This document shows positions 83 to 46,559 of a stretch of 46,559 nt of DNA, piece after piece. The notes below the pieces were generated by a model. It was not told where the DNA came from. It did no database searches and was given only the letters and a program-made list of their open reading frames with translations. The stretch spans positions 1 through 46,559 of the forward strand of contig JABDAE010000008.1 of the NCBI GenBank assembly GCA_013289325.1. The letters run 5' to 3'. Position 1 is the first letter of the stretch; each line of letters begins with the position of its first letter. Source of the DNA: Chlamydiota bacterium. GTDB taxonomy: Bacteria; Chlamydiota; Chlamydiia; Chlamydiales; Parachlamydiaceae. The position numbers and the translations under genes are program-made.

Positions 83-955
83 TTAAAGGATATCTAGCCC
101 AATGTCAGCGGCGTGAACGGAATGGGTAAGGGCGCCCACAGAGATGATATCAACGCCGGCTCTTGCAAGTGATGGGATCGTTTGCAGCGTCACACCGCCT
201 GAAGCTTCAAGGATCACTTTGCCACCCGCGAGCTTTACGGCTTCTTCAATAGTGGAAATGTCCATATTGTCTAAAAGAACGACTTCAGCGCCGGCAGCTA
301 TTGCCTCTTTTAGTTGATCAATTGAGTCCACTTCACATTCGATGCGGCTGGTATGAGGAGCAAATGCCTTTGCTCTCTCTATTGCCTTTGTAATGCCTCC
401 ACAGGCGGCGATGTGGTTGTCTTTGATGAGGATGGCACTTGATAAGCTGTCTCGATGGTTATGGCCGCCGCCAACTCTTACGGCATAGCGATCGAGCAGC
501 CGAAGGCCAGGCATTGTTTTTCTCGTGTCTGCAATGTGTGTCTTTAAACCTTTTGGAATGGCACTGACATACTCATGGGTCATCGTGGCAATGCCTGAGA
601 GGCGCTGAATAAAGTTTAAAGCGACCCTTTCTCCCATTAAAATCGAGCGCGCATTGCCAAAAACCCTCCATAAGGGTTGATTTCTTTCGACTAAGTCTCC
701 CTCGCTTGCAAGTGTTTCAAAGGTAAGAGCGGGATCTACCTTAGAAAAAACACATGCAGCCACAAAGCTGCCAGCTGCGATCATCTGATTTCTTGCGACA
801 GCCAAAGCGCTAAGCTGACATTTGTCATCGATGCAAGCTGAAGAGGTGAGATCACCTCCTAAGACATCTTCTTCAATGGCCCTTAAGACAATGGCCTCAA
901 CGGAGGCCATTGGCAAAAAGGGAAGATATGTGTTTGACTTTTTTAGGATTATCAT
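83..955 (-). CDS. nadC: nicotinate-nucleotide pyrophosphorylase (carboxylating), quinolinate phosphoribosyltransferase
   Basis: Makes nicotinate mononucleotide from quinolinate and phosphoribosyl pyrophosphate in de novo NAD synthesis, in the cytosol. Family motifs are easy to see: RKTMPGLRLLDRYAVRVGGG followed by HNHRD, then LIKDNH, a VVLLDNM strand and ASGGV ahead of ISVGALTHS. From the chosen start the protein has about 290 residues, normal for the family. The start at 955 is preferred because its ATG overlaps the stop of the upstream channel gene (ATGA), a typical coupled junction; an inner ATG at 907 (MASVEAIV) is also possible, and the longer frame to 982 runs into the neighbour. It is the last complete gene of the atpI-atpK-channel-nadC run. 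Chlamydia itself scavenges NAD precursors, so this gene suggests a lineage with more biosynthesis. No nadA or nadB is in the window. Confidence 0.93.
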   Translation of the reverse strand: MIILKKSNTYLPFLPMASVEAIVLRAIEEDVLGGDLTSSACIDDKCQLSALAVARNQMIAAGSFVAACVFSKVDPALTFETLASEGDLVERNQPLWRVFGNARSILMGERVALNFIQRLSGIATMTHEYVSAIPKGLKTHIADTRKTMPGLRLLDRYAVRVGGGHNHRDSLSSAILIKDNHIAACGGITKAIERAKAFAPHTSRIECEVDSIDQLKEAIAAGAEVVLLDNMDISTIEEAVKLAGGKVILEASGGVTLQTIPSLARAGVDIISVGALTHSVHAADIGLDIL

Positions 956-2088
956 TGATCTGTAGGTTTTGCGCCAAACCATTTATTATTAAGATCTTTA
1001 TACACGCCGCTTTCGATGAGATTAAGCAGCTGTTCATTGATCTTCTTGCGAAGTTCATCGCCTTGTTTAACGACAATGCCGTAATTTTCACTGCGGAAGG
1101 TCTCTCCCACAACTTGAACTTTGTCTTTTCCATCGTTTAATGCATAGTACTGAAGAACGGGCGCGTCATATACAACCGCATCCACTTTTCCAGCTTCAAG
1201 GGCATTGATGGCGTTGTCAACTCCATCGAATGTCGAGACCTTTGCGTTTGCCTTGCGAAGAAATTTATCGGCTGTGCTATATGCAACTGTTGCCACTTTT
1301 TTACCTTTAAGATCGCTTGGGCCCTTAATATCTCCTTGCATAGATTCTAATGTAAAGCTTGCAGTGATATAGGCAATGAAGGAAGAGGTGACAAAGATGC
1401 TGACGTATACCCATATCCATGAAATAATTTTACTTGTATAAGAGGGCGGGTAGCCGGCAGCTTGCCCTGCTAGCATTGTCGCCATGCCGAAGGTGGCGTC
1501 AAAGACTCCTTTGAAGTAGGATTTACTAATGCCCGATTCTTCATTATTGTGCTCTACAAACCAGATGATGTGGGCTGGGATTAAGATGAGCACAAAGTAG
1601 ATGATAACCGCCGGGATTAGCACTGACCATTCAATTTTTAAAAGCGAATTAAAGATGCTTGCCTGTTTATTAAGTGGAACTAGGATTGAGAGCCCCCCCA
1701 TAAACATCGGGTAGCTAAAGTCAAATTTTTGTTCCCTAGATGCCGTAATGGAAATCGCAGCTATTCCCACCTGATCTTTTTCAGTGCCAACAGCTTCTAA
1801 AAGGTCCTTTAAAGTTGGTTTCACATCGTATTCAGCCTTAATATTAAGGCCTTTCGCGATTTTGTTCCAAAGGTCTATGCTAAACCCTGTGAGCTTGCCA
1901 TCTTGTTCAAATACAAAAGGGGGAAGGATACGCGTTGCAACTTTAATGACTTTTGAGTTAGTGGAGGGGGTTTCTTTCGCAATTGCTGTTTTAGCATTGG
2001 CATCTTTTGGCGCGGGTTCTCCTTCAGCTCCATATAAAGAAAAAAAACAAAAAGAAGATAGCAGAAGGGCTACAAAATAGTTTTTCAT
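952..2088 (-). CDS. ionotropic-glutamate-receptor-like channel (periplasmic binding domain with inserted pore)
   Basis: A 378-residue exported protein, predicted to be a ligand-gated ion channel of the inner membrane. Residues 1-20 are a signal peptide. Residues about 45-145 form lobe 1 of a family 3 solute-binding domain (GFSIDLWNKIAKG, then AAISITASREQKFDFSYP). A membrane helix (154-176), a re-entrant pore segment (194-212) and a second helix (222-245) follow, and lobe 2 (about 252-375) completes the binding fold. This split layout is that of prokaryotic glutamate receptors such as GluR0. The second helix ends SSFIAYITASFTLESM, close to the SYTANLAAF region of animal receptors. The potassium-filter motif TVGYGD of GluR0 is absent; the pore reads ATMLAGQAAGYPP. 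The start at 2088 is chosen because it begins the signal peptide and lies 10 bases after atpK; the open frame to 2313 overlaps atpK. The ligand is unknown. Confidence 0.85.
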   Translation of the reverse strand: MKNYFVALLLSSFCFFSLYGAEGEPAPKDANAKTAIAKETPSTNSKVIKVATRILPPFVFEQDGKLTGFSIDLWNKIAKGLNIKAEYDVKPTLKDLLEAVGTEKDQVGIAAISITASREQKFDFSYPMFMGGLSILVPLNKQASIFNSLLKIEWSVLIPAVIIYFVLILIPAHIIWFVEHNNEESGISKSYFKGVFDATFGMATMLAGQAAGYPPSYTSKIISWIWVYVSIFVTSSFIAYITASFTLESMQGDIKGPSDLKGKKVATVAYSTADKFLRKANAKVSTFDGVDNAINALEAGKVDAVVYDAPVLQYYALNDGKDKVQVVGETFRSENYGIVVKQGDELRKKINEQLLNLIESGVYKDLNNKWFGAKPTDQ

Positions 2089-2098
2089 GTCAAGGTTC

Positions 2099-2521
2099 CT
2101 AAAATAATAAGATTGAAAAAACGAAAGTGAATAAGGCAAATGACTCGATGATCCCAATCGATGCAAAGCATTTCCCAAAGACTGCAGGCTGCTTAGCTGC
2201 CGCTTGAATGCCAGTTGCACAAACTTTGCCTTGAAATATCGCCGATAACATGATCGCAAGGCCTGAAAAAGTGCCGATGGCGATGCCAGAAATGGGGGAA
2301 AGGGTACCGGCAAGTATGGCCTTACTCATTAAAAGCATCAAAATAAAGCCATAAATTGATTGAGAGGCAGGCGCTGCCGACATGCCGATAAATTTACCGT
2401 GGCCATCTTCAACGCGGCTCATGATGGCGTGAGAGGCGGCGCCGGCAGTGTAGCAGCCAATCGTGCTGCCAATAGAGCTTAAGCTTAAAACTATTGCCGG
2501 TCCAATCATATTGATATCCAT
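2099..2521 (-). CDS. atpK: V-type ATP synthase subunit K (membrane rotor proteolipid)
   Basis: A 140-residue, very hydrophobic protein that forms the ion-carrying rotor ring of the V-type ATPase. It has two helical hairpins, as expected for a duplicated proteolipid. The carboxylate is visible in the last hairpin (IGIIESFALF), while the equivalent spot in the first hairpin is a Gln (ASQSIYGF), so there is one ion-binding site per subunit. The length matches chlamydial AtpK. The ATG directly abuts the atpI stop. The ion carried, proton or sodium, cannot be settled by eye. Confidence 0.93.
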   Translation of the reverse strand: MDINMIGPAIVLSLSSIGSTIGCYTAGAASHAIMSRVEDGHGKFIGMSAAPASQSIYGFILMLLMSKAILAGTLSPISGIAIGTFSGLAIMLSAIFQGKVCATGIQAAAKQPAVFGKCFASIGIIESFALFTFVFSILLF

Positions 2522-4342
2522 TTAGCGCAACTCCTGTAAGTGTAGAGGTTTGAATTCTTTGCCTCCGCCTTCAAAAGAATAGTGATACCATTCTAGGAAA
2601 TTAAGACGCAAGCCATGAATGACGCCGCCCATAATTCCAAGCACTAAATTAATGAGATGGCCCACGATGAGCAGTAAAATCCCTAAGACAAATGGCAAAG
2701 AATTGGAAAGCTCATTCATCGTCGCGGCAAGCATCGCCCCTGAAAGGCCAAGCGCGTAGAGGCGAAGGTACGAGAGGACGTCTCCAAAAATTTGGATGAG
2801 GTTCATTAATTCAAGTAAGCCAAAAAATTTAAATCGCCATATCGCAATGATCATAGCAATTGAGAGTCCGCAATACATCAGATATAGGCCATTTTGGGCA
2901 GCGCTGCTTGAGTCGATTCCAAAGGCAAACTCTAGCATTGATGACGCTTCTAAAAAGCTTGGTAAATAGAGATAGGCGCCGATCATGAAAAGAATCCAGC
3001 CAATATTAGAAGGATTTCTGCCTATATAGCGCAGCATCGAAAGAATAAGGTGTATGACGCCAATCAGAAGGGCCATCTCCATCATGATCTGATCGGAAAA
3101 TTTACTGTAAATCTCATCGGTAATAGGAGATAGGTGGTTAAATGCAGCCTTTTTTTCCACAAGCCATGAAATCAAAGAAACTTTTCTTAAAGGATTGTCT
3201 AAAGAAAGGCTCATCCCAAAAAAAGATGTGGTCAAAACGCCCCACACAATGCAAGAAAAGCTTAAGAGGGTGGCAAGGTCTAAAAGGCGCCTTTTCATCC
3301 CGATTAAATGAGCATGTTTATATCTGATAAATAAAGCCGCAAATAAGAGAATAAGGCCATAGCCCCCATCTCCGATGATGATAGAGAAAAAAAGAGCAAA
3401 GGAGATAAGCACAAAAAGGGAAGGGTCTTTATCGGTAGAAGAGGGGGTGTCGTAAATGTTGACGAGGTCTTCCCCTATTTTATGAGCCCCCTTATTTTGT
3501 AAAGAGGTGGGAACAGTATCATAAGGTGAAATGGCTATTTCTTCAATATAGACACCAAATTCATCGCTGAGTGTTTTAAGAAGATTTTTTTTATTATCCG
3601 CCACCCATCCTTCGGTTGCAAAAAGAGAAGTCCCATCGAGGGGGCATTGCACAAGCTTTTTCGCAGCTTTTAGACTTGTGTGATTGAGCTCTTCAATCAA
3701 GGCCTTATGCAATAATACATTGTATCGACTTAGGGCTTTAAGGCGGGCATTGATTCCGTGTAATTCCCCTTGAACTTGGCTATAGCGGCTTTGCAGTTCT
3801 GTAAAGGAACGATCCACATCCATTTCAATCATTTTTGAAGGGGTTTTTAAGTCTTTACCGATGGCGATAAAGTAATCAAGATCGCAATGAGAGCCAACAA
3901 AGATTATATGAGAGGGAAGTACATGTGTTTTAGCATAGTGCAACTTAGCGCAATAAAATTTAATTTGAGTGCGCAACTCCTTTTCAAGGGCTTTAAGCTC
4001 ATCCATTGAGAAGTCCCCAAAGGCCTGCACCCTTATCATCTCTTGGCGCACCTTCTTTTCCTCTTCGCAAAGGGCGGTAAGTTTTGCCTTAAGTGCGATG
4101 ATGTCACTTGCAAGGACAATTGGGTCGATATCTTGGGTAGTCTCTTCTTGTTCACTTGGAGGAAGAGAGCGTAAAATTTTAATGGCGGAGGTTAGCTTGT
4201 CTTGAGCCTCTGATGTCAACGGAATTTGGGCAATCTTTTTATCGATGAATTGGATGATGCCAAGTTCTTGCGCACTTTTAAAAAAGGGAGCTTTGATCTC
4301 CTCTTGGCCTAAAAATAGGAATTTATTGACATCGTAGCGCAT
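2522..4342 (-). CDS. atpI: V-type ATP synthase subunit I (stator membrane subunit a)
   Basis: A 606-residue protein forming the stator half-channel of the V-type ATPase. The first ~300 residues are soluble and coiled-coil rich (peripheral stalk attachment), and the second half has about seven membrane segments beginning near residue 310. The essential arginine lies in LSYLRLYALGLSG, equivalent to the LRLWALSL segment of eukaryotic subunit a. The MGGVIHGLRLNFLEWYHYSF segment near the C-terminus is also typical. In Chlamydia atpI directly follows atpD; here 4.8 kb of other genes lie between them, so atpI now heads its own transcript. The 156-base gap upstream, shared with a divergent small gene, must contain its promoter. 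Confidence 0.94.
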   Translation of the reverse strand: MRYDVNKFLFLGQEEIKAPFFKSAQELGIIQFIDKKIAQIPLTSEAQDKLTSAIKILRSLPPSEQEETTQDIDPIVLASDIIALKAKLTALCEEEKKVRQEMIRVQAFGDFSMDELKALEKELRTQIKFYCAKLHYAKTHVLPSHIIFVGSHCDLDYFIAIGKDLKTPSKMIEMDVDRSFTELQSRYSQVQGELHGINARLKALSRYNVLLHKALIEELNHTSLKAAKKLVQCPLDGTSLFATEGWVADNKKNLLKTLSDEFGVYIEEIAISPYDTVPTSLQNKGAHKIGEDLVNIYDTPSSTDKDPSLFVLISFALFFSIIIGDGGYGLILLFAALFIRYKHAHLIGMKRRLLDLATLLSFSCIVWGVLTTSFFGMSLSLDNPLRKVSLISWLVEKKAAFNHLSPITDEIYSKFSDQIMMEMALLIGVIHLILSMLRYIGRNPSNIGWILFMIGAYLYLPSFLEASSMLEFAFGIDSSSAAQNGLYLMYCGLSIAMIIAIWRFKFFGLLELMNLIQIFGDVLSYLRLYALGLSGAMLAATMNELSNSLPFVLGILLLIVGHLINLVLGIMGGVIHGLRLNFLEWYHYSFEGGGKEFKPLHLQELR

Positions 4343-4480: not shown

Positions 4481-4498
4481 CAAAACAAGGAGAATATT

Positions 4499-4603
4499 AT
4501 GACTAAAGAAGTTGTCAAGCACCGTAAAGATGAAAAAAAGAAGCCTACAATGACTGCAAAAGAAAAGAAAGCAAAAAAGCAAGAAAAAAAGCAAGCTAAG
4601 TAG
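4499..4603 (+). CDS. 34-residue lysine-rich basic peptide
   Basis: A short gene encoding a 34-residue peptide with about 15 lysines and almost no hydrophobic residues (MTKEVVKHRKDEKKK, then KEKKAKKQEKK). It is supported by a good ribosome binding site (AAGGAG at 4487-4492, 6 bases before the ATG), a TATAAT at 4475-4480 and a strong terminator-like hairpin directly after the stop. It is divergent from atpI. The composition suggests nucleic acid or ribosome binding, but that is a guess from charge alone and no family is recognised. Confidence 0.6.
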   Translation: MTKEVVKHRKDEKKKPTMTAKEKKAKKQEKKQAK

Positions 4604-9161: not shown

Positions 9162-9806
9162 TTAAAGGTTTTCAGCTTTATACCCCTGAAAATTGCAGCG
9201 AGATTGTGCGTTAACTTGGATTTTTTTATACGCCTCTTTGGCTTGTGAGACAGCGGCAAGCTGCTGATCGCCTAAGAATATTTTAATGTTTTTGATGTTT
9301 TTTAAAGATCTGGGAATTAAGATTTTTTCAAATAAATTCACCCGTATCGCCACTTCCCGAAGAGCTTTTTGCAAGATGACCACTTTTTCTTGTGCGATAT
9401 CAAAGCGGTATATCGCTTCCCTTTGCTTGCGAAGGTGAATGGCAGCAAGATCCACCCAAGGGGGCGTGTCAAAGAGGTCGTAGTGAAAGGGGGCAAACGT
9501 CATCGATTGAAGACGCGGGATAATCACGCCTGCAATATGGACCCAGTCTTTTTGCACGTTTAAGACAATAGCTGCCGTCTCGATATTAATAGAAAGTTGT
9601 TCTTTAAGAAGAGGAGAAAACTTTTGAACGGCTGCATCATGGGCCTCTTTTTGTAACTTAAATTCCTGTAATTCAACGCGCGCCTTGGCAACTTCAGCTT
9701 GCAACATGGCTTTTTTAAGTTGGAGCGTTGGCAAATACTTTTCCAGCTGCTCTTTTTTTTGCTGTTGCTGGCGCAGCTCAGTTTTTGTTTTTTTAACTTC
9801 TGCCAT
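9162..9806 (-). CDS. atpD: V-type ATP synthase subunit D (central stalk)
   Basis: A 214-residue subunit that forms the rotating central axle inside the A/B hexamer, linking it to the membrane ring. Two long coiled-coil helices at the two ends are typical (LQLKKAMLQAEVAKARVELQ near the start, and RVNLFEKILIPRSLKNIKNI followed by IFLGDQQLAAVSQAKEAYKK near the end). It starts 12 bases after the atpB stop. In Chlamydia the next gene is atpI; here the operon ends. Confidence 0.94.
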   Translation of the reverse strand: MAEVKKTKTELRQQQQKKEQLEKYLPTLQLKKAMLQAEVAKARVELQEFKLQKEAHDAAVQKFSPLLKEQLSINIETAAIVLNVQKDWVHIAGVIIPRLQSMTFAPFHYDLFDTPPWVDLAAIHLRKQREAIYRFDIAQEKVVILQKALREVAIRVNLFEKILIPRSLKNIKNIKIFLGDQQLAAVSQAKEAYKKIQVNAQSRCNFQGYKAENL

Positions 9807-9818
9807 AAAATAATGTTA

Positions 9819-11117
9819 TTAACGCGGCCAGTATGTGTTTAAAATTGCTTCTTTGATGCCCACTTCATCATGCGCAAAGTGCAGCATTAAGCTTTTCCAC
9901 CCAAGATCTAGCGCCTCTTCCAGTGTATAGTTGACATCTAGATCCATCATCGTTTTTTCAAAATGGTGGGAGTAGTCTAATAGCTTTTTATCCCAAATGG
10001 ATAAAATAAATCCCATACTCTCCCTTTCCCTTGCCTTCTTTGATTCGGCATAAAGGCGAATCATGGCGTTGGACAGTTCCGCGTGATCCTCTCTTGTCAC
10101 TTTCCCAATGACAAGCTGTTTGAGGCGTGAGAGCGAGCCGAATGGATCGATTCTACCTTGGTGCAAGTAAAGTTGCCCTTCGGTGATATATCCCGTATTA
10201 TCGGGAATTGGATGGGTGACGTCATTGCCAGGCATTGTGGTGACAGCGACAATAGTGATCGAGCCGCTACCTTGAATTAAGACAGCCTTTTCATAGCGGC
10301 TGGCAAGATCGGAATAAAGCGAGCCTGGATATCCTCTATTTGAAGGGATTTGATCCATCGTAATCGAAATCTCTTTAATCGCATCGGCAAAGGAGGTCAT
10401 GTCGGTTAAAAGGACTAAGACATCTTTTCCTTCAATTGCAAATTTTTCGGCGGTGGCAAGGCTTAAATCCGGCACGAGTAGACATTCCACAGCCGGGTCT
10501 GTCGCTTGGTGAATGAACATGATCGTCTTATTGAGAGAGCCAAACTCCTCGGCATTATCGATAAAGGCTTGATAGTCTTTAAAGGTGAGCCCCATGCCAC
10601 CGATGATCACGACATCTGCATCGGTCTGATTGGCAATTCTCATTAAAAGGGGATTATAAGGCTCTCCTGCGATAGAAAAGATGGGAATTTTTTGCGATTT
10701 GACAAGGCAATTGAACATATCGATCATAGGGATGTTGGTGCGCACCATCTCCCTTGGTACGACCCTTTTTACAGGATTAAAGGATGTGCCTTGGATATTT
10801 GTGGGCTCTCCGATAATTTCAGGTCCCCCATCAATCGGCAAAAACGAGCCATTAAAGCGTCTGCCAAGAAGCGATGGACTAAAATTGATCTGCATCTGCC
10901 GCTTTAAAAACGTAACCTTATCGTTTGTGGAGATGCCGCGTGTATTTTGAAAGACTTGAAGCGTTGCTAAATGGCCATCTATTCTAATGACGGAGGCGAG
11001 CACCTTACGCCCATCGGCAAGAGTAATGCTGGCAAGTTCACCAAGGGAAATATCGCTTGCCGTCACTGTGATCAGGTTGCCGCGCATAGAATGGATCTTA
11101 TCATAGACAATTTTCAT
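9819..11117 (-). CDS. atpB: V-type ATP synthase subunit B
   Basis: A 432-residue regulatory (non-catalytic) nucleotide-binding subunit that alternates with subunit A in the soluble head. It has the beta-barrel N-terminal domain, [14 protein letters not shown], a degenerate P-loop region ([12 protein letters not shown] instead of GxxxxGKT), DVVIIGGMG, and the conserved [17 protein letters not shown] and [19 protein letters not shown] blocks. The length is usual for the family. Only 3 bases separate it from atpA. Confidence 0.95.
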
Positions 11118-11120
11118 GTC

Positions 11121-12887
11121 TTACCTCACTAATTCATCAATAGTATTTAATGCTATATGGAAGGCATCAGTTTTAATAGACATAAAACAAATATTTTTAA
11201 TCTGATTTTGCAGATGTAAAAAGTACTTTCTCGCCTCGTCGTGAGTGGAAAAATCAAAAGTCTTATCGAAAATTTTGTTGATCAAAAGAAATAAGGGAAT
11301 TTGCTTTTCTACCGGGCAGTAGGTGTCTTCTTTATCAAAAGAATTTTGCTGCAGATAGCTAAAGTCGTATAGTTCTGCCTTAAGGTAGAGGATCATGTCA
11401 GAAAGTGAGATGCCCTCTTCTCCGACGACTTCCATCCGTTTGCCTATTTCATTGCCTTTGATAAGGAGAAGATGCGCCCGTTTGACATAATCTCCCCACC
11501 TTTCAACTTTTATGCCGATCTCTTTTGATGTGTCTTGCACATACTTAGACCACGAGATAAGAGGATCGATTGCAGGATAGCGGCGCGAATCAGACCTTTC
11601 GCGGGAAAGGCCTAAAAATGCCCCTACCACACTTAAAGTGCTTTGGGTGACAGGCTCTTCGAAGTTGCCGCCGGCAGGTGAAACTGCGCCGCCAATTGTC
11701 AAAGAGCCCTCTTTCCCGTTTTTAAGTCTAAGGACTCCTGATCTTTCATAGAAATTGGCAATTCTTGACGATAGATAAGCCGGAAAGGCCTCTTCTCCAG
11801 GAATCTCTTCAAGTCGAGAGGACATCTCGCGCATCGCCTGCGCCCAGCGCGACGTTGAGTCGGCAAGGACTAAGACATCAAGGCCCATCTGGCGGTAATA
11901 TTCTGCAATAGTGACACCGAGATAAACGGAAGCTTCTCTTGCTGCAACAGGCATTGAGGAGGTGTTGCAGATGATGACTGTGCGCTCCATCAAAGTGTTT
12001 CCCGTATGGGGATCGATTAAATGGGGAAATTCTTGCAATATTTCCACCACTTCTCCAGCTCTTTCGCCACATGCTGTGACGATGACAATGTCGACTGCAG
12101 AAAATTTTGAAAGGTGGTGCTGAAGCACAGTTTTTCCAGCTCCAAACGGCCCCGGAGTGCAAAAGCTCCCCCCTTTAACCAGAGGAAATTGGGTGTCTAT
12201 AATCCGATTGCCCGTGTCCATCATTTTGTAAGGCTTTATTTTGTCTCCGCAGCAAAGCGTTGACTTGATGGGCCACTTTTGCACCATCGTAAAGGAGTGT
12301 TCGTGGCCAAAGGTATCTAGTGCCTTTGCCACTACTGTATCGATTGTATAAGCGCCAGCAGTAATCACCCAAGTGATGGTGTAGGTTCCATAATGGGAAA
12401 ATGGGAGCATGATTTGGTGATGGAATTTTCCCTCTAATGTTTCTCCGAGGCTATCGCCGCGAGATACTTTTTTGCCAAGCTCTGCTTTTGGGATGTAATT
12501 CCACTTTTTTTCCCGATCTAAAGGGGCCAGGTAGAGCCCTCTTGGTAAAAAGTACCCTTCACTTTTTGCAATTTCAGTTAAGGGATTTTGCAGGCCATCG
12601 ATGATTGTGCTAAGAAGACCAGGTCCTAGTTCTGCTTCTAACAATTTACCTGTAAAATTAACTTTTGTGTCAAGGCCAACCCCACGAGTGTCTTCAAAGA
12701 CTTGAAGTTTGGCGATGTGATCTGAAATTTCTAACACTTCAGCTTTGAGTGTGACGCCTTGTACTTCTACAAAGGCGACTTCCCCTTGGCGTATGTCGCC
12801 TGTAAAGGCCACATGGAGTAAATTTCCAAAGGCTTTTACCACTTTTCCTTCTGCATGCTTAAAGGGAGTCTTTTGATTGTTTGTCAT
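11121..12887 (-). CDS. atpA: V-type ATP synthase subunit A (catalytic)
   Basis: A 588-residue catalytic subunit that hydrolyses or makes ATP in the soluble head. The P-loop GPFGAGKT is at residues 246-253; VTACGERAGEVVEIL and DSTSRWAQAMREMSSRLEEI are the usual family blocks, and the V/A-specific insertion (residues about 110-190) is present. The gene begins one base after the stop of the DUF2764 gene, which argues for translational coupling. Chlamydiae use this ATPase together with ADP/ATP exchange; whether it synthesises ATP or pumps ions is not decided by sequence. Confidence 0.96.
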   Translation of the reverse strand: MTNNQKTPFKHAEGKVVKAFGNLLHVAFTGDIRQGEVAFVEVQGVTLKAEVLEISDHIAKLQVFEDTRGVGLDTKVNFTGKLLEAELGPGLLSTIIDGLQNPLTEIAKSEGYFLPRGLYLAPLDREKKWNYIPKAELGKKVSRGDSLGETLEGKFHHQIMLPFSHYGTYTITWVITAGAYTIDTVVAKALDTFGHEHSFTMVQKWPIKSTLCCGDKIKPYKMMDTGNRIIDTQFPLVKGGSFCTPGPFGAGKTVLQHHLSKFSAVDIVIVTACGERAGEVVEILQEFPHLIDPHTGNTLMERTVIICNTSSMPVAAREASVYLGVTIAEYYRQMGLDVLVLADSTSRWAQAMREMSSRLEEIPGEEAFPAYLSSRIANFYERSGVLRLKNGKEGSLTIGGAVSPAGGNFEEPVTQSTLSVVGAFLGLSRERSDSRRYPAIDPLISWSKYVQDTSKEIGIKVERWGDYVKRAHLLLIKGNEIGKRMEVVGEEGISLSDMILYLKAELYDFSYLQQNSFDKEDTYCPVEKQIPLFLLINKIFDKTFDFSTHDEARKYFLHLQNQIKNICFMSIKTDAFHIALNTIDELVR

Positions 12888-12888
12888 A

Positions 12889-13644
12889 TTAGCTTGCCAT
12901 TTCTACATTTAAAGGGTGATTCATTTGATAAAAGCGCTCTGCCATGATAAGCTGTAACATATAGCCTGCGAAGCGATCGATTGAAAAAAACTTATCATCA
13001 AACATCTCTTCTATCCGATTAAAACGGTATTCTAAGAGGGCTTTATGAAGGATGATAGGATCTTGATTGAAGTCTTGGATAATATTTTTAAGATCCGCGT
13101 ATTGAGGTAAAGGCTGATAGCCATAAGCATCTTTTTGCTCCATGATGTGGACGATGATTTCATCCCCTTTGTCTTCATATTGCAGCTCGACTTCAAGATC
13201 CCTTTGCAGCGATTTTGCGCGAAAAGCAAGAAGGGTAAGCCTAACTTCTCTCTCAAATTTATAATAGCCTTGGATAATGCCGGAAGATTTTTTGATCTCT
13301 TCTTGAAAAAAAGTTCCTAGAAGTTGTGAGTAGTGCAAAAGGCGCATCTCGTTTGTGAGGTATTGGTCTAAAAAGGCAAAGACATAGCCTGGCAACATTG
13401 TGCGCGTAGCAAGGGCATCTTCAAGTTCTAATAGATTAAAAGTGCCATAAGGCCCAAGTGGCGCCTCCTTCCAATAAAATCTTAAATTGGCGATATCATA
13501 GAGGTGGCGAAGCCTTAGCAGCTTTTGATAATCGCCTGCGCGTAAATTATCTTTCATGAAAGTGTTAAACTCTTGAAAGGACATTTCAGGGGGTTTACCG
13601 ATTTCAATTTTAGGTAAAAGGATGCCAAGAAAATAATAGCTCAT
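12889..13644 (-). CDS. DUF2764 family protein of the V-ATPase operon (probable subunit C equivalent)
   Basis: A 251-residue protein at the position that Chlamydia fills with the CT309 family, between atpE and atpA. The opening (MSYYFLGILLPKIEIGKPPEMS) and the alternation of short helices with acidic loops fit DUF2764. It has no membrane segments. Because chlamydial clusters lack a recognisable subunit C, this protein is thought to replace it as the link between rotor stalk and membrane ring. The family placement is from recognition and the role is an inference from gene order. Confidence 0.8.
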   Translation of the reverse strand: MSYYFLGILLPKIEIGKPPEMSFQEFNTFMKDNLRAGDYQKLLRLRHLYDIANLRFYWKEAPLGPYGTFNLLELEDALATRTMLPGYVFAFLDQYLTNEMRLLHYSQLLGTFFQEEIKKSSGIIQGYYKFEREVRLTLLAFRAKSLQRDLEVELQYEDKGDEIIVHIMEQKDAYGYQPLPQYADLKNIIQDFNQDPIILHKALLEYRFNRIEEMFDDKFFSIDRFAGYMLQLIMAERFYQMNHPLNVEMAS

Positions 13645-13652
13645 CGTTTAGA

Positions 13653-14291
13653 CTACTCGCTATCTTGAGAAAATATCATTTTGCGAAACTCTTTCCTTAA
13701 GACGTAGCTTGATAAAAGCTCTTTTAAAGCATTTTCTGACATATCGATTGTGATATGTTGAGAAGAGGCAATCACTTTTACTCCTGCTGCAAAGTCCCCG
13801 ATTTCAATGGAATTGTTTTTAAGCTTTTTTAAAGTCTCTTGGGCAAGAAGCGCGACAACCTTTGCAGGATCGATGCTTTTTGGAATTTGGGTAGTCAGGT
13901 CACAAGAGAGACCCTCTTTCTCTAAAGCCTTTACAATTGCCTCAACAAGGTCTGCGATCAAATTTGGAAGGTTGATTCCGTCTGCAATGATAGAGGGAAG
14001 GCTACTATTAAAAAACTCTTTTTCTATGCGCAATTTAAGGGCTTCTAAGGTGTTTTTAGCTGCTTGCTGCAGAGTCGATTGAAAACTTATGCGCTCTTTT
14101 TCTACATTGGCTTTTGCCTCTTTTTCAATGGTATCGGCTTCCTTTTTGGCTTTGGAAATAATACTTGCAGCTTCTTGTTTTGCCGCCTCGATCAGCTCTT
14201 TTGCTTCTTGTTTGGCCGGCTCAAGAGATTCCTCTTTTAAGAGCTTGCAGATATGCTTGATCTTATCATCGCCCGTTTCAAGTGTTTTCAT
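13653..14291 (-). CDS. atpE: V-type ATP synthase subunit E (peripheral stalk)
   Basis: A 212-residue subunit of the outer stalk that holds the catalytic head still. The N-terminal half is a long charged coiled coil (KEESLEPAKQEAKELIEAAK, then repeated KKEAD and KEAKANVEKE), and the C-terminal half is the globular domain that caps the head. The ATG at 14291 is preferred to the one at 14300: AAGGA lies 9 bases before the former but directly abuts the latter. It heads the operon atpE-DUF2764-A-B-D, and its promoter must lie in the 134 bases shared with the divergent DUF3592 gene. Confidence 0.9.
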   Translation of the reverse strand: MKTLETGDDKIKHICKLLKEESLEPAKQEAKELIEAAKQEAASIISKAKKEADTIEKEAKANVEKERISFQSTLQQAAKNTLEALKLRIEKEFFNSSLPSIIADGINLPNLIADLVEAIVKALEKEGLSCDLTTQIPKSIDPAKVVALLAQETLKKLKNNSIEIGDFAAGVKVIASSQHITIDMSENALKELLSSYVLRKEFRKMIFSQDSE

Positions 14292-14382
14292 GGAGTGCAT
14301 TCCTTATCCAAAACTTTGCGTGTTTGAAAGCAGGATACTCCAATTTTATATTTATCACTAGCGCTTAATCCACAAAAACATT

Positions 14383-27402: not shown

Positions 27403-30400
27403 GTCAATATCCTTCTTGCACAATTCATTTCCTTGTACTGTAAGCTCCAAAATAACACTAAGTCTACTTAAGAACTCTTGACGGAAGGGAAGATTTTCTT
27501 CTCTTTGTGCAAATTGATATAAGCCATGTAACTCTGCAACGACCTCGGCATCACTTTCCTTAATCCCTTGTAAAAACTTCAAAAGCCGCGAAGAGAAGCT
27601 ACTACTTGATGGATCTTCTTCGGACGGCGAGCTATGAAGAGCTATTTGGGTCGCTATTTTAAGTATTACCTTGCATTGCTCAATAAGAGGCTTAAACCTA
27701 AATCCGGCAGTTGGAGACGGCAACTTAACGCAATCTCTTGAACCAGAATCATTTGCGCTGTGGCGGTCCAACACCCTTTGAGAATGTCCCACCCCATTGC
27801 AAAGTGATTCTAATTCAAGATCTTGCATTAATTTGCCATCTCGAACTGCCGGATCTAGGTTAAACCTAGAAACGGGATTTGTCACCACTTCATTTTTTCC
27901 CTCTTTTTGCAGGTCATATACAGCCTCTACAAAGACCTCTACAAAGGCAAGTCCATAATGGATGATCGTCCAAACTGCTTCTGCGATCTCTTTGGGGTCA
28001 AGGAATATTTTGAACGCCATCACAGGTGCTCCATTAGTGGCTTGAGACACCAAATGGTTTAAGACTGTCTCCAGTTGTGTATCGATCTCTGAAGATGAGG
28101 AATGAGGTTGCCGTTGAAAACTTGCCCACATATTCAGCATCAGGACTGAAAGAGTTTCTGTGATAATTCCAATTTGTGTCTTACTTAAGATCGCGATATA
28201 TTTAATTATCAACGTCTCCTTAGTAAGTGCAACTGGAGCTCCTATAGAAGTTTTTGAAAAGACAAAAAGATCGATCAGCTCATTTAAAGTCTCTTGTCTT
28301 TCCCGTAAAATAAATAAGCGTTGATTGACTATAGATTCAGTGGAACTCATCGCCATAAATCCATTCATGACAAGGTCAAAAATAGGAAGGTAGGCATCAT
28401 ATTCAGCTGACGGGTGCTTAGCCTTGCGGACCGTAGCGCTTAAATTAAAAATAAGCGTTTTATAAAAAGAGACTCTTCCATGCACATCGCTTAGGAAGAT
28501 CTTTGCAACCAATGTAGGTTCAAAACTTTGTGTTAAATTTAGATGTAAAGGCATAAGCTTATCGATCAAAATTTTATACACATTTTTTAACCACAAATCT
28601 TCAGCTTTTTTCGGAAAAATTGTCTGGCATTTATCGCATGCGAATTGGATTTCCTTTGTATAAGAAGTTTTAGGATTTAAACTTTTTAACTTCTCAAAGA
28701 GATTCTCTTTAGGAGAAGATAAGCCCATTAAAGGATAGGCGTTTGCCGGACGAAAATACTCGTTTAATGTGTGAAGCCACTTGCGCGTCTTTTTTCCACC
28801 TGCTTTATTTATATAGGGGTCTATGTTCGAAAAAGTGCTCTTCCATCCTTCAACTAATTCGTTTTGCGTTTTCATGGAGTCAAAATGTTGCATGACTACA
28901 ACATCGCGCTCTAAAAGGCGGACGCATTTTTTAAAGTTAGTTTTTCCAAATTCGGTGTGATTTGATTTCTTTAGATTTTCTGAAAAAACTTCACAAAATT
29001 GGCTATATGGAGGGCCATATGTTAAGCAAGTGAGTACATGCGATTTGATTTCTGATTCAGTGAACGCTCTCTTATGAAATTCAGATAGGCGATCATTGAC
29101 AAATTGGGTTTCCCAAACGATAGTTTCCTCTATTTTGGGGAGAAGATTTTGTACTAATTTATCTAATCTCTCTTGCGATGTACAGGCAAAGCTAATGGCG
29201 ACGACAAACGCGTGATAAGAGGGGGATTGAAAACAAGCGGCAATGGCCCCCTCGCCTCTTTCCCATAATAAAGAGATCAGCATCTCATTGATCTGTAAAA
29301 CCTTGTGATAGCCATCAAATGAGGTCCCACGTGAGAGTAAAACAACAATGGCTTCAGTTGCTTTGCTAATTCCATTAATAAATAGATAATCTTGCTCTAA
29401 TCCCCCTGGCATTTGCTTTAAATAAGTTAACGCTTTTTTAAAATCGTTACATCTTACGGCCACTTTAATGCGCTCGATAAGTAAATAATCGTAATAGCTT
29501 TTTTGCTCTTTGGATAACTTTGAGCGCGATAATGTGGAAATGTAGTGATCGGCCTTATCGCTTAAAAATTCACAGTGCATAAAGATTAAGGCAAGGTTTA
29601 ATTGAGAGACACTTTTGTTCCCATCGATTAACTGTATCTTAAGATGTGTGAAAACCAATACAATGGATTGACTAAGAGAAGATCTGCTCTTTTCTTCTGT
29701 ATCCACTTCAGCTGAATGACATTCAATCCAGTTTAGAAAGTTTGGATAAATATGCGTTGTAAATGCGATGAGTTCTTCATGAAGTTCGGCAGGAGCCTCT
29801 TTTATATATGAATGGAAAAGGATTAACACATCGCCATAATTCAATAAAGATGGATCTCTTTCGATTTGCTTCATCCACGTATATAGCTGAATTTGGATTT
29901 GGCGCGTTTTTAATAATAATGCGATTTGTTCATCATGTTGAAACAATTGGCGGTATTGATAAAATTGCAATTGCTGTTCACCGTTGCAAGGGAAAAGAAA
30001 CAACTTTTTCAGCAAATGGACCTGTAGTTTGTCTTGAGAAAAGCTATTTTGCCATAATTCAAGAAGCAAGGTCACTTGATCGACATTGCCCTTTTGCATA
30101 TGGGAGATAGCTGCTGTAATCAATTTTTCGCAAAGTTCCTTATCGACCTGCTTAAGCGATTGTAATTCAATAGTTAAAGTCTCTATAAGTTTTTTATAGA
30201 TGGAGCGATCCAGCTCATTATCTTGTGGCCACTTTTTGATAAGTGATAGTAAATAATTGCAATACTCTTTTTTCTTTATTTTTTGTTTACATTTTTCAAG
30301 GGTTAAAAAACATGCCTTAAACGCTTGAACCTCTATCGCTTTTTCTAACGCCTCATCAAGACCTTCTAAAATAGTTTGGGACTCAGTCTTTAGCGAAGTT

Positions 30401-32223
30401 TTAACAAAGGTCGATTCAATGCGTTTAAAGTTGACTGTCTTGATTGCCTTTTGAAAGATCGCGATATCTGCAAGCACTTGATGTTGACTCATCATTTCCA
30501 AAGCTTTTGAAAACAGTTGCTGAAAAAAAGACTCATTACAGCTTAAGAATCGCTCTGGGTGGTCTATAATGCCTTTATACCCCATTAAAAATAGCGTTTG
30601 TGGGATGTTTTCTTCAGCGAGCAATCCCAAATAAATTGCTTGGTACTCCGATGGATCAAGACGCAACTGTTGCTCTCCCATCTCAAGAAGTGTTTGCAGC
30701 GCCCATTCCTTATTGGGATGGTTTTTTATGTTTTCAAAAATTAAGGTGAGCAAGGACTTGTTTAACGAGGGATTGCCAAGACACGTCCTTAAACATTTGT
30801 CTTTTTCCTCCTCATTCCAGGAGGAAATAGCTGTAATAATGTCTTCAGGGTTGTAAAGGCCAATTTTTTTGCATGTGCGGAGATGGTGGCCAAGCTCATC
30901 AGGGGTAAAAGCGAGAAACTGCTCCAAATGTGTTTTTGGTTTTTGCAAAAGAGGAGGGACTTCCCCTTCTTGTAGAGCGAGTAGTTTTTTTTTGCGAATC
31001 TTAAAAACTTCAACAAAACACAGAATAAATGCCTCGCGCAAAAGCGGATCTTGCTTAAACCAATTAGCAAGTGCAAAAGCCCTTGTTCCTTCCAAAAAAC
31101 AACCATAAGTCATTTGTTTAAGGTAAATCAATGTATATTGATCGCAAGATTCTGTCGCAAGGGCATGCATGAAAGCAGAGATTGCGCAAACTAATTGCTG
31201 ATTGTTACATTCGGCAATTGCCAGCTGCCAAGAGCTGTCTTGAGAAATTTCACTTATCCCTGAGGATATCCCAGATGATGTGATGGAGGATGCCGTTTCA
31301 TTTTCGCTTGCATCAAAGACTTGCGTGGCTCTATTTAACCTAAAAACGGCAGTTGGAGACGCTAACTTGCCACAATCTCTTGAACCAGAATCATTTGCAG
31401 TGGGGCGGTCCTTCACCACTTGGGAATGTCCCGCCCCACTGCAAAGTGATTCTAATTCAAGATCTTGTGCCAATTTAGCATCTCGAACTGCCGTTTTTAG
31501 GTTTAACATAGCTTTTGGGCAAAGCAGTTCTTTAATTTTTTTTAGACATTCATCAAGAAATTTGGATGGTTTAGGTAATCGTGTTGTTTCTAAAACGTAG
31601 TAATTCCAAATATATGCGATCATCCCAATTGGATTACTTGTTGAGTTATGTGTTTTCAAATATTCTAAAATTTGAAAAACGCCTTGCTCTTTATGATGGT
31701 TTGAAAATATTAAGAACAAATCTTCCATCTCATCTTTTTTCAAAAAGCGGCAAAAGGCAAGACGCAGCAATGTTTTAGTAAACACGTCATGACTTGTCTT
31801 GATAAGGGTCGAATTTCGCGATGCATGGTCTAAGAGGGCGAGATTGATCGAATGCAGAGAACTTACATCACTTAAGGGATTTATGTGGATAAAGGATAGC
31901 TCAGCTTGTTGTAAGGGAACTCTTCTTTTTAGCGCATCTGAAAGGGGAATGACAACCTCTTCTGCCCGTGTAATATGTGAAAGATCAGATAAAGGGTGAA
32001 AGACGATTTTGATTTCGGTGTCTGCGCTTGCATTGCATTCACAAAGGGGATCTACACGGGCTTTGCAACCAAGTGTAAATAACCCCCCATGTAATTCCCC
32101 ATGCCCCCCCCCTCCCAGGTAACTCCATTTTATCTTCCAAAAAAAGGCGCTTTTGAAAAAACAATCCATGTAATACGGCCTTATCTTTCTTGAATAAAGC
32201 TTCCAAAACACTTGCAGCGTCAT
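27382..32223 (-). CDS. giant helical-repeat protein, C-terminal frame (downstream of poly-G frameshift)
   Basis: A very long open frame of which about 1574 residues lie after the G tract at 32104-32112. It is almost wholly alpha-helical, with many LxxxL/F-rich helices that suggest solenoid (TPR-like) repeats; no enzyme motif was found in this part. Directly after the G run it reads HGELHGGLFTLGCKARVDPL, which continues naturally from the upstream frame (32039-32896). With eight or eleven G in place of nine, the two would form one protein of about 1840 residues. The first ~40 residues of this frame (upstream of the tract) are out-of-frame coding of the upstream gene and probably not real. Two in-frame 174-bp palindromic elements add about 58 residues each. 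It has no signal peptide. It may be cytosolic or a secreted effector; the role is unknown. Confidence 0.65.
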   Translation of the reverse strand: MTLQVFWKLYSRKIRPYYMDCFFKSAFFWKIKWSYLGGGGHGELHGGLFTLGCKARVDPLCECNASADTEIKIVFHPLSDLSHITRAEEVVIPLSDALKRRVPLQQAELSFIHINPLSDVSSLHSINLALLDHASRNSTLIKTSHDVFTKTLLRLAFCRFLKKDEMEDLFLIFSNHHKEQGVFQILEYLKTHNSTSNPIGMIAYIWNYYVLETTRLPKPSKFLDECLKKIKELLCPKAMLNLKTAVRDAKLAQDLELESLCSGAGHSQVVKDRPTANDSGSRDCGKLASPTAVFRLNRATQVFDASENETASSITSSGISSGISEISQDSSWQLAIAECNNQQLVCAISAFMHALATESCDQYTLIYLKQMTYGCFLEGTRAFALANWFKQDPLLREAFILCFVEVFKIRKKKLLALQEGEVPPLLQKPKTHLEQFLAFTPDELGHHLRTCKKIGLYNPEDIITAISSWNEEEKDKCLRTCLGNPSLNKSLLTLIFENIKNHPNKEWALQTLLEMGEQQLRLDPSEYQAIYLGLLAEENIPQTLFLMGYKGIIDHPERFLSCNESFFQQLFSKALEMMSQHQVLADIAIFQKAIKTVNFKRIESTFVKTSLKTESQTILEGLDEALEKAIEVQAFKACFLTLEKCKQKIKKKEYCNYLLSLIKKWPQDNELDRSIYKKLIETLTIELQSLKQVDKELCEKLITAAISHMQKGNVDQVTLLLELWQNSFSQDKLQVHLLKKLFLFPCNGEQQLQFYQYRQLFQHDEQIALLLKTRQIQIQLYTWMKQIERDPSLLNYGDVLILFHSYIKEAPAELHEELIAFTTHIYPNFLNWIECHSAEVDTEEKSRSSLSQSIVLVFTHLKIQLIDGNKSVSQLNLALIFMHCEFLSDKADHYISTLSRSKLSKEQKSYYDYLLIERIKVAVRCNDFKKALTYLKQMPGGLEQDYLFINGISKATEAIVVLLSRGTSFDGYHKVLQINEMLISLLWERGEGAIAACFQSPSYHAFVVAISFACTSQERLDKLVQNLLPKIEETIVWETQFVNDRLSEFHKRAFTESEIKSHVLTCLTYGPPYSQFCEVFSENLKKSNHTEFGKTNFKKCVRLLERDVVVMQHFDSMKTQNELVEGWKSTFSNIDPYINKAGGKKTRKWLHTLNEYFRPANAYPLMGLSSPKENLFEKLKSLNPKTSYTKEIQFACDKCQTIFPKKAEDLWLKNVYKILIDKLMPLHLNLTQSFEPTLVAKIFLSDVHGRVSFYKTLIFNLSATVRKAKHPSAEYDAYLPIFDLVMNGFMAMSSTESIVNQRLFILRERQETLNELIDLFVFSKTSIGAPVALTKETLIIKYIAILSKTQIGIITETLSVLMLNMWASFQRQPHSSSSEIDTQLETVLNHLVSQATNGAPVMAFKIFLDPKEIAEAVWTIIHYGLAFVEVFVEAVYDLQKEGKNEVVTNPVSRFNLDPAVRDGKLMQDLELESLCNGVGHSQRVLDRHSANDSGSRDCVKLPSPTAGFRFKPLIEQCKVILKIATQIALHSSPSEEDPSSSSFSSRLLKFLQGIKESDAEVVAELHGLYQFAQREENLPFRQEFLSRLSVILELTVQGNELCKKDIDFTQCIE
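27692..27865. repeat. 174-bp palindromic element, copy near the 3' end of the giant gene
   Basis: Ends TTAAACCTAAATCCGGCAGT and the near complement at 27838-27865, with inner complementary blocks (GAATCATTTGC / GCAAAGTGATTC). It is translated in the giant gene as FNLDPAVRDGKLMQDLELES and on to SGSRDCVKLPSPTAGFRF. Same length, orientation and reading frame as the copy at 31334-31507, at about 85% identity by eye. Confidence 0.9.
31334..31507. repeat. 174-bp palindromic element, copy near the 5' end of the giant gene
   Basis: The whole element is close to its own reverse complement: outer arms AACCTAAAAACGGCAGTT, middle arms around GAATCA-TTTGC, inner arms CAGTGGGGCGG and CCGCCCCACTG. Minus-strand translation is LNLKTAVRDAKLAQDLELES ... 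SGSRDCGKLASPTAVFRLN; the plus strand reads FNLKTAVGDANLPQSLEPES ... SNSRSCANLASRTAVFRFN, so both strands encode nearly the same peptide. Confidence 0.92.
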
Positions 32224-45566: not shown

Positions 45567-46559
45567 TTAGCATAGTCTTGCTTTATATAGGTCAAGACAG
45601 CTAAGGAGACCCATCTCCCTGATGTGTCTGATCTGTAGGAATCTATTGTCTATTTTGGATATTCGTTTGTAGTGCATACAGCGAATACGTTTCCTTATCC
45701 ATTCATCCATTTTAAAGAATGCGATTTTCATCGTCGTGAACTTGGATCCAAAATAATTAACAGTGCCTCGGATCACTCGATTTAGTTTATCGATAACTTC
45801 TTTGTCTAAGTTGTACGATCGTGTGGTTATTTCCCTGATCTTGTTCTCAAATTTCTCTCTGGATTTATCTCTCATTTGAACAGATCTGCTTTTGATAGAA
45901 AACCCCAGAAAATTGAATCCTTTTGAATAACGACATATTTTAGTCTTCTCAGGACTTTCTTCCAGTTCCATCTTAGCTAGAAAAATTCGAGCTAAATCTA
46001 GTGCTCTCTCTGCTTCAGGTTGCGATTTACACATGATTACAAAATCATCCGCATAGCGCACAAAACATAGTCCGTTGGCCTCTAAATACCAATCTAGATG
46101 GTCTAGAATAATGTTTGAAATTAATGGTGATATTTGACCGCCCTGCGGTACGCCTTTGAAGGTAGATGTTAACTTACCGTCTTCCATTACACCTGACTTA
46201 AGAAATCTTTCGATTAGATTTAGGATATTTCCATCAGCGATCCTGGCAGCTAATGACTTCATAATAAGTTCATGCGGAATGTTGTCAAAGAATCCTTTGA
46301 TATCCACGTCGACTATGAACTTATAACCTTGTTTAGCGTAATGCATTACACGCTCAACAGCTTGATGACAGTTGCGTCCTGGTCTAAAGCCAAAGGAGTT
46401 ATCGTGAAATCGACTCTCAAATATAGAGTTGATCAGACGGCGTACGACCTCCTGAGCAATTCTGCATTTGACTCGAGGAATGCCTAAAGGGCGAGTTTTT
46501 CCATCTCCTTTTGGGATATGGACTCTCCTTAATGGCACAGGGAGATAGGTTCCGTTTTT
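45567..46559 (-). CDS. ltrA: group II intron reverse transcriptase/maturase (5' end outside window)
   Basis: At least 330 residues are visible; the gene starts beyond the right edge, since the frame is open to the last base (KNGTYLPVPLRRVHIPKGDG). Reverse transcriptase motifs are GFRPGRNCHQAVERV, DVDIKGFFDNIPH, VPQGGQISPLISNI and RYADDFVIM, the catalytic YADD being intact. NFLGFSIKSRSVQMR and RGTVNYFG belong to the maturase X domain. The protein ends soon after it (LLSCLDLYKARLC), so there is no C-terminal HNH endonuclease, as in intron types that insert without their own nuclease. Maturases of this kind splice and move their host intron. Confidence 0.88.
   Translation of the reverse strand, partial: KNGTYLPVPLRRVHIPKGDGKTRPLGIPRVKCRIAQEVVRRLINSIFESRFHDNSFGFRPGRNCHQAVERVMHYAKQGYKFIVDVDIKGFFDNIPHELIMKSLAARIADGNILNLIERFLKSGVMEDGKLTSTFKGVPQGGQISPLISNIILDHLDWYLEANGLCFVRYADDFVIMCKSQPEAERALDLARIFLAKMELEESPEKTKICRYSKGFNFLGFSIKSRSVQMRDKSREKFENKIREITTRSYNLDKEVIDKLNRVIRGTVNYFGSKFTTMKIAFFKMDEWIRKRIRCMHYKRISKIDNRFLQIRHIREMGLLSCLDLYKARLC

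Follow-up and report, generated by a model that had tools for sequence, protein, structure and literature searches.

Here, we ask what kind of protein is encoded by a gene that lies directly behind the V-ATPase gene atpK in a member of the Parachlamydiaceae, where this gene came from, and what its product might do beside an ion pump. The gene is located in a 46,559-nucleotide stretch of a Chlamydiota bacterium (assembly GCA_013289325.1, contig JABDAE010000008.1; here referred to as the window). We consider it likely that the gene encodes a prokaryotic ionotropic glutamate receptor (iGluR) without a K+ filter, that it derives from a cyanobacterial-type donor, that it is positioned behind atpK, and that its product would be gated as proposed below. 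The genes and sites relevant to this question are the following:

83..955, minus strand: nadC, quinolinate phosphoribosyltransferase (TIGR00078, 9.7e-93; sequence)
952..2088, minus strand: glutamate-receptor-type channel gene, 378 aa (Pfam SBP_bac_3, Lig_chan and Lig_chan-Glu_bd; PDB sequence matches)
2099..2521, minus strand: atpK, V-ATPase membrane ring subunit K (Pfam ATP-synt_C; NF007200; alignment to 2bl2)
2522..4342, minus strand: atpI, V-ATPase subunit I (Pfam V_ATPase_I)
4491..4518, minus strand: promoter-like site TTGACA-16-TATTCT (10/12) upstream of atpI (consensus scan only)
9162..14300, minus strand: the rest of the V-ATPase cluster, atpE-C-A-B-D, apart from atpI-atpK in the window genome

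The channel gene is an open reading frame running from 2088 down to 952 without an internal stop, and its ATG is preceded by AGGA. On the minus strand, the order is atpI (4342-2522), atpK (2521-2099), a 10-nt spacer, the channel gene, and nadC; a scan based on consensus only found no site resembling a terminator in the interval from atpK to the channel gene. Both the 10-nt distance from the atpK stop (coordinates 2099 and 2088) and the overlap with nadC agree with the first-pass annotation of this DNA. The TGA stop of the channel gene sits within ATGA, the ATG of which is at position 955; judged from the sequence, nadC more probably starts here, giving a 4-nt overlap, while its longest reading frame (83-982) would give an overlap of 31 nt. 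The arrangement suggests that the channel gene is apparently cotranscribed with V-ATPase genes. The same annotation had placed the gene inside an ATPase operon. This description holds for atpI-atpK, which the channel gene directly follows, but not for atpE-C-A-B-D (14300-9162), which in the window genome is separated from atpI-atpK-channel-nadC (4342-83) by ∼4.8 kb with genes on both strands.

Within the channel protein, the following parts can be distinguished:

2026..2088, minus strand: signal peptide, about residues 1-21, MKNYFVALLLSSFCFFSLYGA (sequence; hydropathy peak at residues 5-23)
1669..1953, minus strand: S1 lobe of the ligand-binding domain, residues 46-140, with R118 at 1735-1737 (alignments)
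1552..1632, minus strand: M1 helix, residues 153-179 (hydropathy 2.63; alignment)
1444..1518, minus strand: pore helix and filter, residues 191-215, YFKGVFDATFGMATMLAGQAAGYPP (profile match to the GluA2 pore; clade conservation)
1339..1431, minus strand: M3 helix with the gate region, residues 220-250 (alignment, hydropathy, profile match)
967..1338, minus strand: S2 lobe, residues 251-374, with D308 at 1165-1167 (alignments)

Three Pfam models match above cut-off, i.e., SBP_bac_3, split over residues 48-372 (4.6e-26), Lig_chan at residues 164-264 (3.3e-11), and Lig_chan-Glu_bd at residues 47-138 (5.4e-7). The membrane insert, at about residues 141-250, interrupts the binding domain where iGluRs have theirs, and hydropathy peaks mark the signal peptide, M1, and M3. 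Pfam, hydropathy, and alignment thus bear out the layout read at first pass (a signal peptide, a split two-lobe binding domain, and an inserted M1-pore-M3), including the two membrane helices. Among PDB sequences, the best match to any solved structure is the ligand-binding core of NpGluR0 from Nostoc punctiforme (5e-56; PDB 2pyy), of which only this core is solved, crystallized with L-glutamate; the likeness is at the level of sequence. The matches that follow are to bacterial glutamine/arginine binding proteins and to AMPA and NMDA receptors, the receptor matches spanning the pore too (GluA4, 6e-19), and a 20-row profile of the family matches GluA2 at 1.7e-43. When the transmembrane part was searched alone against all PDB sequences to take out the contribution of the binding domain, AMPA receptors came first (GluA2, 2.8e-11), with a one-residue gap through P and M3. 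AlphaFold monomer models of residues 40-378 were poor (pLDDT 58.6 and 56.4, from alignments of three and four rows); Foldseek on the first of these poor models returned NpGluR0 and iGluRs with TM-scores near 0.34, too low for the matches to carry weight. R118 in S1 and D308 in S2 are invariant in 20 aligned homologues, and an S1 Arg and an S2 Asp are the glutamate contacts described by Ger et al. (2010, PMC2950845). The protein combines a split two-lobed type-3 binding domain, an M1-P-M3 insert, and the Arg (carboxylate) and Asp (amine) contacts. Based on full-length sequence homology, we conclude that it is an iGluR homologue, and its earlier description as an iGluR-type channel is upheld at this level.

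A further reading is that the channel has been over-interpreted and that the product is an ABC-type amino acid binding protein with a mere membrane anchor. In favor of this reading, GlnH-type proteins are among the matches of the binding domain, and annotation frequently calls genes of this sort transporter proteins. However, the insert has M1, P, and M3 at the iGluR position, Lig_chan is above cut-off, the P region is the most conserved of the family, and no ABC-importer permease or ATPase gene adjoins the channel gene, which is flanked by atpK and nadC. We regard this explanation as very improbable.

The P region reads FGMATMLAGQAAGYPPS, also given as GMATMLAGQAAGYPPS, and, as recognized in the first-pass annotation, the K+ filter motif TVGYGD is absent from it; the filter has two residues fewer than that of K+-type (GluR0-type) members. 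All 12 members of the nearest clade keep Q209 and P214, and the pore segment, for which a lack of conservation among homologues had been raised as an objection, varies less among the nearest homologues than any other stretch (mean conservation 0.82). In the profile alignment, the conserved pore Gln aligns at most one residue from the Q/R site of GluA2, in a register that depends on the one-residue gap. Could the protein nevertheless be a K+ channel gated by glutamate, as is GluR0 of Synechocystis (slr1257; PDB 1ii5)? The domain layout is common to both, and GluR0-type channels are the next relatives in the channel tree. GluR0, for which a topology the reverse of that of K+ channels has been demonstrated, has a GYG K+ filter and K+ transport activity, and volume control under KCl stress has been shown as a physiological role for it (PMC13099474). 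In contrast, the window protein lacks this filter and so falls outside the Group 1/GluR0-type K+-selective receptors, its filter is shortened, and AMPA receptors are the best PDB match of its pore module; a K+ channel is therefore, in our judgment, a highly unlikely identity.

Rather, its sequence identifies the protein as a new member of a known bacterial class without the K+ filter, Group 2, which has the same topology as other iGluRs (Ger et al. 2010, PMC2950845). With this group, it shares the signal peptide, the S1-M1-P-M3-S2 order, the lack of a recognizable K+ filter, the conserved Arg and Asp, and a closer relation to eukaryotic receptors than that of Group 1, and it groups with non-K+ bacterial channels. 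It differs from Group 2 in a filter that reads GQAAG, in a largely rewritten M3 gate region, and in the operon link to the V-ATPase; moreover, the text describing Group 2 names cyanobacteria and proteobacteria, not Chlamydiae. The binding domain and M1-P-M3 are also homologous to those of the AMPA receptors (GluA1-GluA4); however, the window protein has no N-terminal domain and no M4, and its gate is only loosely like SYTANLAAF.

Where did the gene come from? Of the 234 genomes searched in the phylum, only two gave channel matches, i.e., the window genome and G081; in a set of 244 genomes from the phylum to which the cyanobacterial match belongs, 43 did. In a 40-row tree, which left out the accessions of Ger et al., the window protein pairs with that of G081 as its sister (100/99.8), and both sit in a 12-row non-K+ clade (100/100), the other members of which all came from the cyanobacterial search and include Thermosynechococcaceae and Kovacikia. 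The tree thus indicates a lateral origin of the gene. The simplest reading is that the gene was apparently acquired once, from a cyanobacterial-type donor, with the direction inferred from the nesting in the cyanobacterial clade, and that the recipient was apparently the ancestor of both carriers, i.e., of at least two genera of one family. In the atpI-atpK tree, the window genome and G081 are apart; sister placement is not rejected (AU p 0.078). The open papers searched did not describe any glutamate-receptor channel from the chlamydial phylum.

The window genome is a draft of 198 contigs with 2.62% contamination, and few genomes of the phylum have the gene, as would be expected of contamination or misassembly. 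This explanation is exceedingly improbable: in an independent assembly from another genus, G081, the sister gene likewise follows atpI-atpK, and the GC (0.42) and GC3 (0.41) of the channel gene are near the values of its neighbors.

Several other candidates and related genes were encountered in these searches. Sub-threshold PF00060 matches in G044 and G102 were rejected; one locus has voltage-gated-type channels (one with TVGYGD) and the other a further channel of this broad type, neither with a binding domain. A PF00060 match in G210 was rejected as a 64-aa frame with stops. Viral sequence collections yielded one distant relative on a phage contig and one relative with a K+ filter. A 10-kb phage contig (IMGVR_UViG_3300020599_000097, 2896-4011) has an iGluR-type gene without a K+ filter, 28% identical and flanked by portal-like and other head-protein-like genes on the opposite strand; from its sequence context, it is possibly a phage-carried channel. 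On a second viral contig (IMGVR_UViG_3300040801_001692, 1914-2626), a GluR0-type gene with TVGYGD runs off the contig end and may belong to flanking host DNA. Finally, a conjugative IncFII plasmid of Salmonella (CP074271.1) encodes, at 1941-2996 and close to an ISNCY transposase, an iGluR-type channel without a K+ filter that is annotated as a transporter protein; similar genes are present on several Salmonella plasmids, and none of 5,426 E. coli genomes has a near match.

Two further features were noticed in the window itself. A gene for a group II intron reverse transcriptase/maturase (TIGR04416, 2.5e-101) is located at 45567-46538, near the window end. A palindromic repeat of ∼180 nt occurs at 27692-27869 and 31334-31511, both copies in frame in one 1613-aa ORF; its arms of 63-69 nt are 83% complementary and 47 nt apart, and its RNA fold has a z of −9.6. 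The 58-aa reading of the repeat has 150 or more matches in the 2.9-Mb window genome (150 scored of 442 first-look candidates), some within long open frames. Four further genera of the family have related copies (41 in G091, 10 in G078, 4 in G076, and 3 in G077), and G081 has none. The repeat is similar to the palindromic elements of Rickettsia, which insert into coding genes.

Is the pore still that of a channel? Departures were counted at columns that are conserved in 10 or more of the remaining 11 clade members. The window protein departs at 1 of 30 positions in S1, 9 of 45 in S2, 7 of 16 in P, and 11 of 16 in M3; the corresponding values for the sister protein are 7/35, 14/50, 2/14, and 1/11. 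Consequently, P and M3 of the window protein are changed at 18 of 32 positions versus 10 of 75 in S1 and S2 (Fisher p = 1.7e-5, which is descriptive because the contrast was noticed after inspection of the alignment), while the sister has 3/25 versus 21/85 in the binding domain (p = 0.27). With the topology fixed, the terminal branch of the window protein is 1.01 for the transmembrane part versus 0.44 for the binding part, and that of the sister is 0.19 versus 0.63. In terms of sequence, the binding half is well kept and the pore is strongly rewritten. A local frameshift can be rejected as the cause because the P and M3 alignment to the sister is gap-free and 11 invariant pore positions (Y191, G194, F196, A198, L206, Q209, P214, F237, A239, T242, and T246) are kept in frame.

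The gate of the window protein had earlier been likened to the animal type. An inherited SYTANLAAF motif is absent, and descent from an animal-type gate is contradicted by the relatives: the sister and the cyanobacterial relatives read VAYFTAxxTxxLTVQQL or near, and the SS residues of SSFIAYITASFTLESM are found only in the window protein, arguing that they changed in the window lineage only. The likeness of SSFIAYITASFT to the animal gate is, on this comparison, part of the pore rewriting and not inherited.

The rewriting could reflect new selectivity and gating, or decay of the pore, either of which could leave the same mark. Counted against a channel are the 18 of 32 changed P/M3 positions and the transmembrane branch of 1.01 versus 0.44, and the window pore may no longer conduct. 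To our knowledge, no Group 2 channel has a measured conductance. In the main rival explanation, amino acid binding was kept and the channel lost, leaving a membrane-anchored sensor or scavenger with its pore under relaxed constraint. The concentration of changes in P and M3 and its absence from the sister fit this idea; however, the 11 invariant pore positions are kept, the helices are hydrophobic, the frame is open, and altered selectivity would give the same pattern. Weighing these points, we find a sensor or scavenger unlikely, though worth serious attention, and continue to favor a non-K+ iGluR.

In both carrier genomes, the channel gene directly follows atpI-atpK. The pairing with atpK, proposed earlier as a search across the phylum, recurs in the second genome: in G081, the V-ATPase genes E-C-A-B-D-I-K are contiguous, and the channel gene is the next and last gene. 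Because the operon in G081 is intact with the channel gene next, the link to atpI-atpK probably predates the operon break in the window genome. The atpK locus is readable in 30 genomes of the family; the channel gene is adjacent in 2 of them, a low number that counts against the proposal made here, and varied other genes are adjacent in 28, none of which has channel remnants behind atpK. What follows atpK thus differs greatly from one family member to another; in G079, for instance, two consecutive ORFs that look F-box-type take the place that the channel gene has in the window. Ser, Gln, Gln, and Glu of AtpK align with what we take to be the Na+ ligand positions of Enterococcus hirae NtpK (alignment to 2bl2). 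A second, divergent atpK is present in the window genome (contig C16, 26434-26829; 44% identical to the window atpK) and in G092 (contig C82, 10903-11298; 41% identical), which suggests a second V-type ATPase in both genomes.

Taken together, the most likely function predicted from the sequence is that of an amino-acid-gated cation channel without K+ selectivity. We propose that four subunits would assemble in the inner membrane with periplasmic N and C termini, and that glutamate or a closely related L-amino acid would close the two-lobed domain via R118 and D308. Closure would pull M3 and open the pore, letting cations pass without K+ selectivity. Because the gene is apparently cotranscribed with genes of a V-ATPase whose ring keeps Na+-type ligands, we speculate that opening could dissipate part of the gradient built up by the pump or could provide a counter-ion path; the supply of periplasmic amino acids would thereby alter the membrane potential. 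A cation leak or counter-ion path gated by amino acids would form a coherent pair with a V-ATPase that moves Na+, the coupling being suggested by gene order in two genomes. We are more doubtful about a bolder version, and hold it to be improbable, in which the captured channel is a working V-ATPase accessory with a pore rebuilt for the ion of the pump (perhaps Na+), such that the host amino acid supply sets the bacterial membrane potential.

The window genome has four matches to TLC ATP/ADP translocases, three of them strong; these support the intracellular habitat assumed at first pass and indicate that the organism is probably an energy parasite. The chlamydial porin family PF01308 gave no match, but control matches were likewise absent, so this negative carries no information. 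Chlamydia is reported to use K+ gradients and membrane potential in development, with the sensors described as unknown and the sensing of host ion and nutrient changes as open (PMC7830353). If functional, the protein described here would provide a host-dependent bacterium with a ligand-gated channel. Gene exchange between the chlamydial phylum and cyanobacteria is under debate, and the channel gene is one more gene of cyanobacterial type in this phylum. Moreover, the sister pair, with one conserved and one rewritten pore, provides a natural test of the selectivity and gating residues in the non-K+ bacterial receptors, which are little studied and are the closest to the animal ones.
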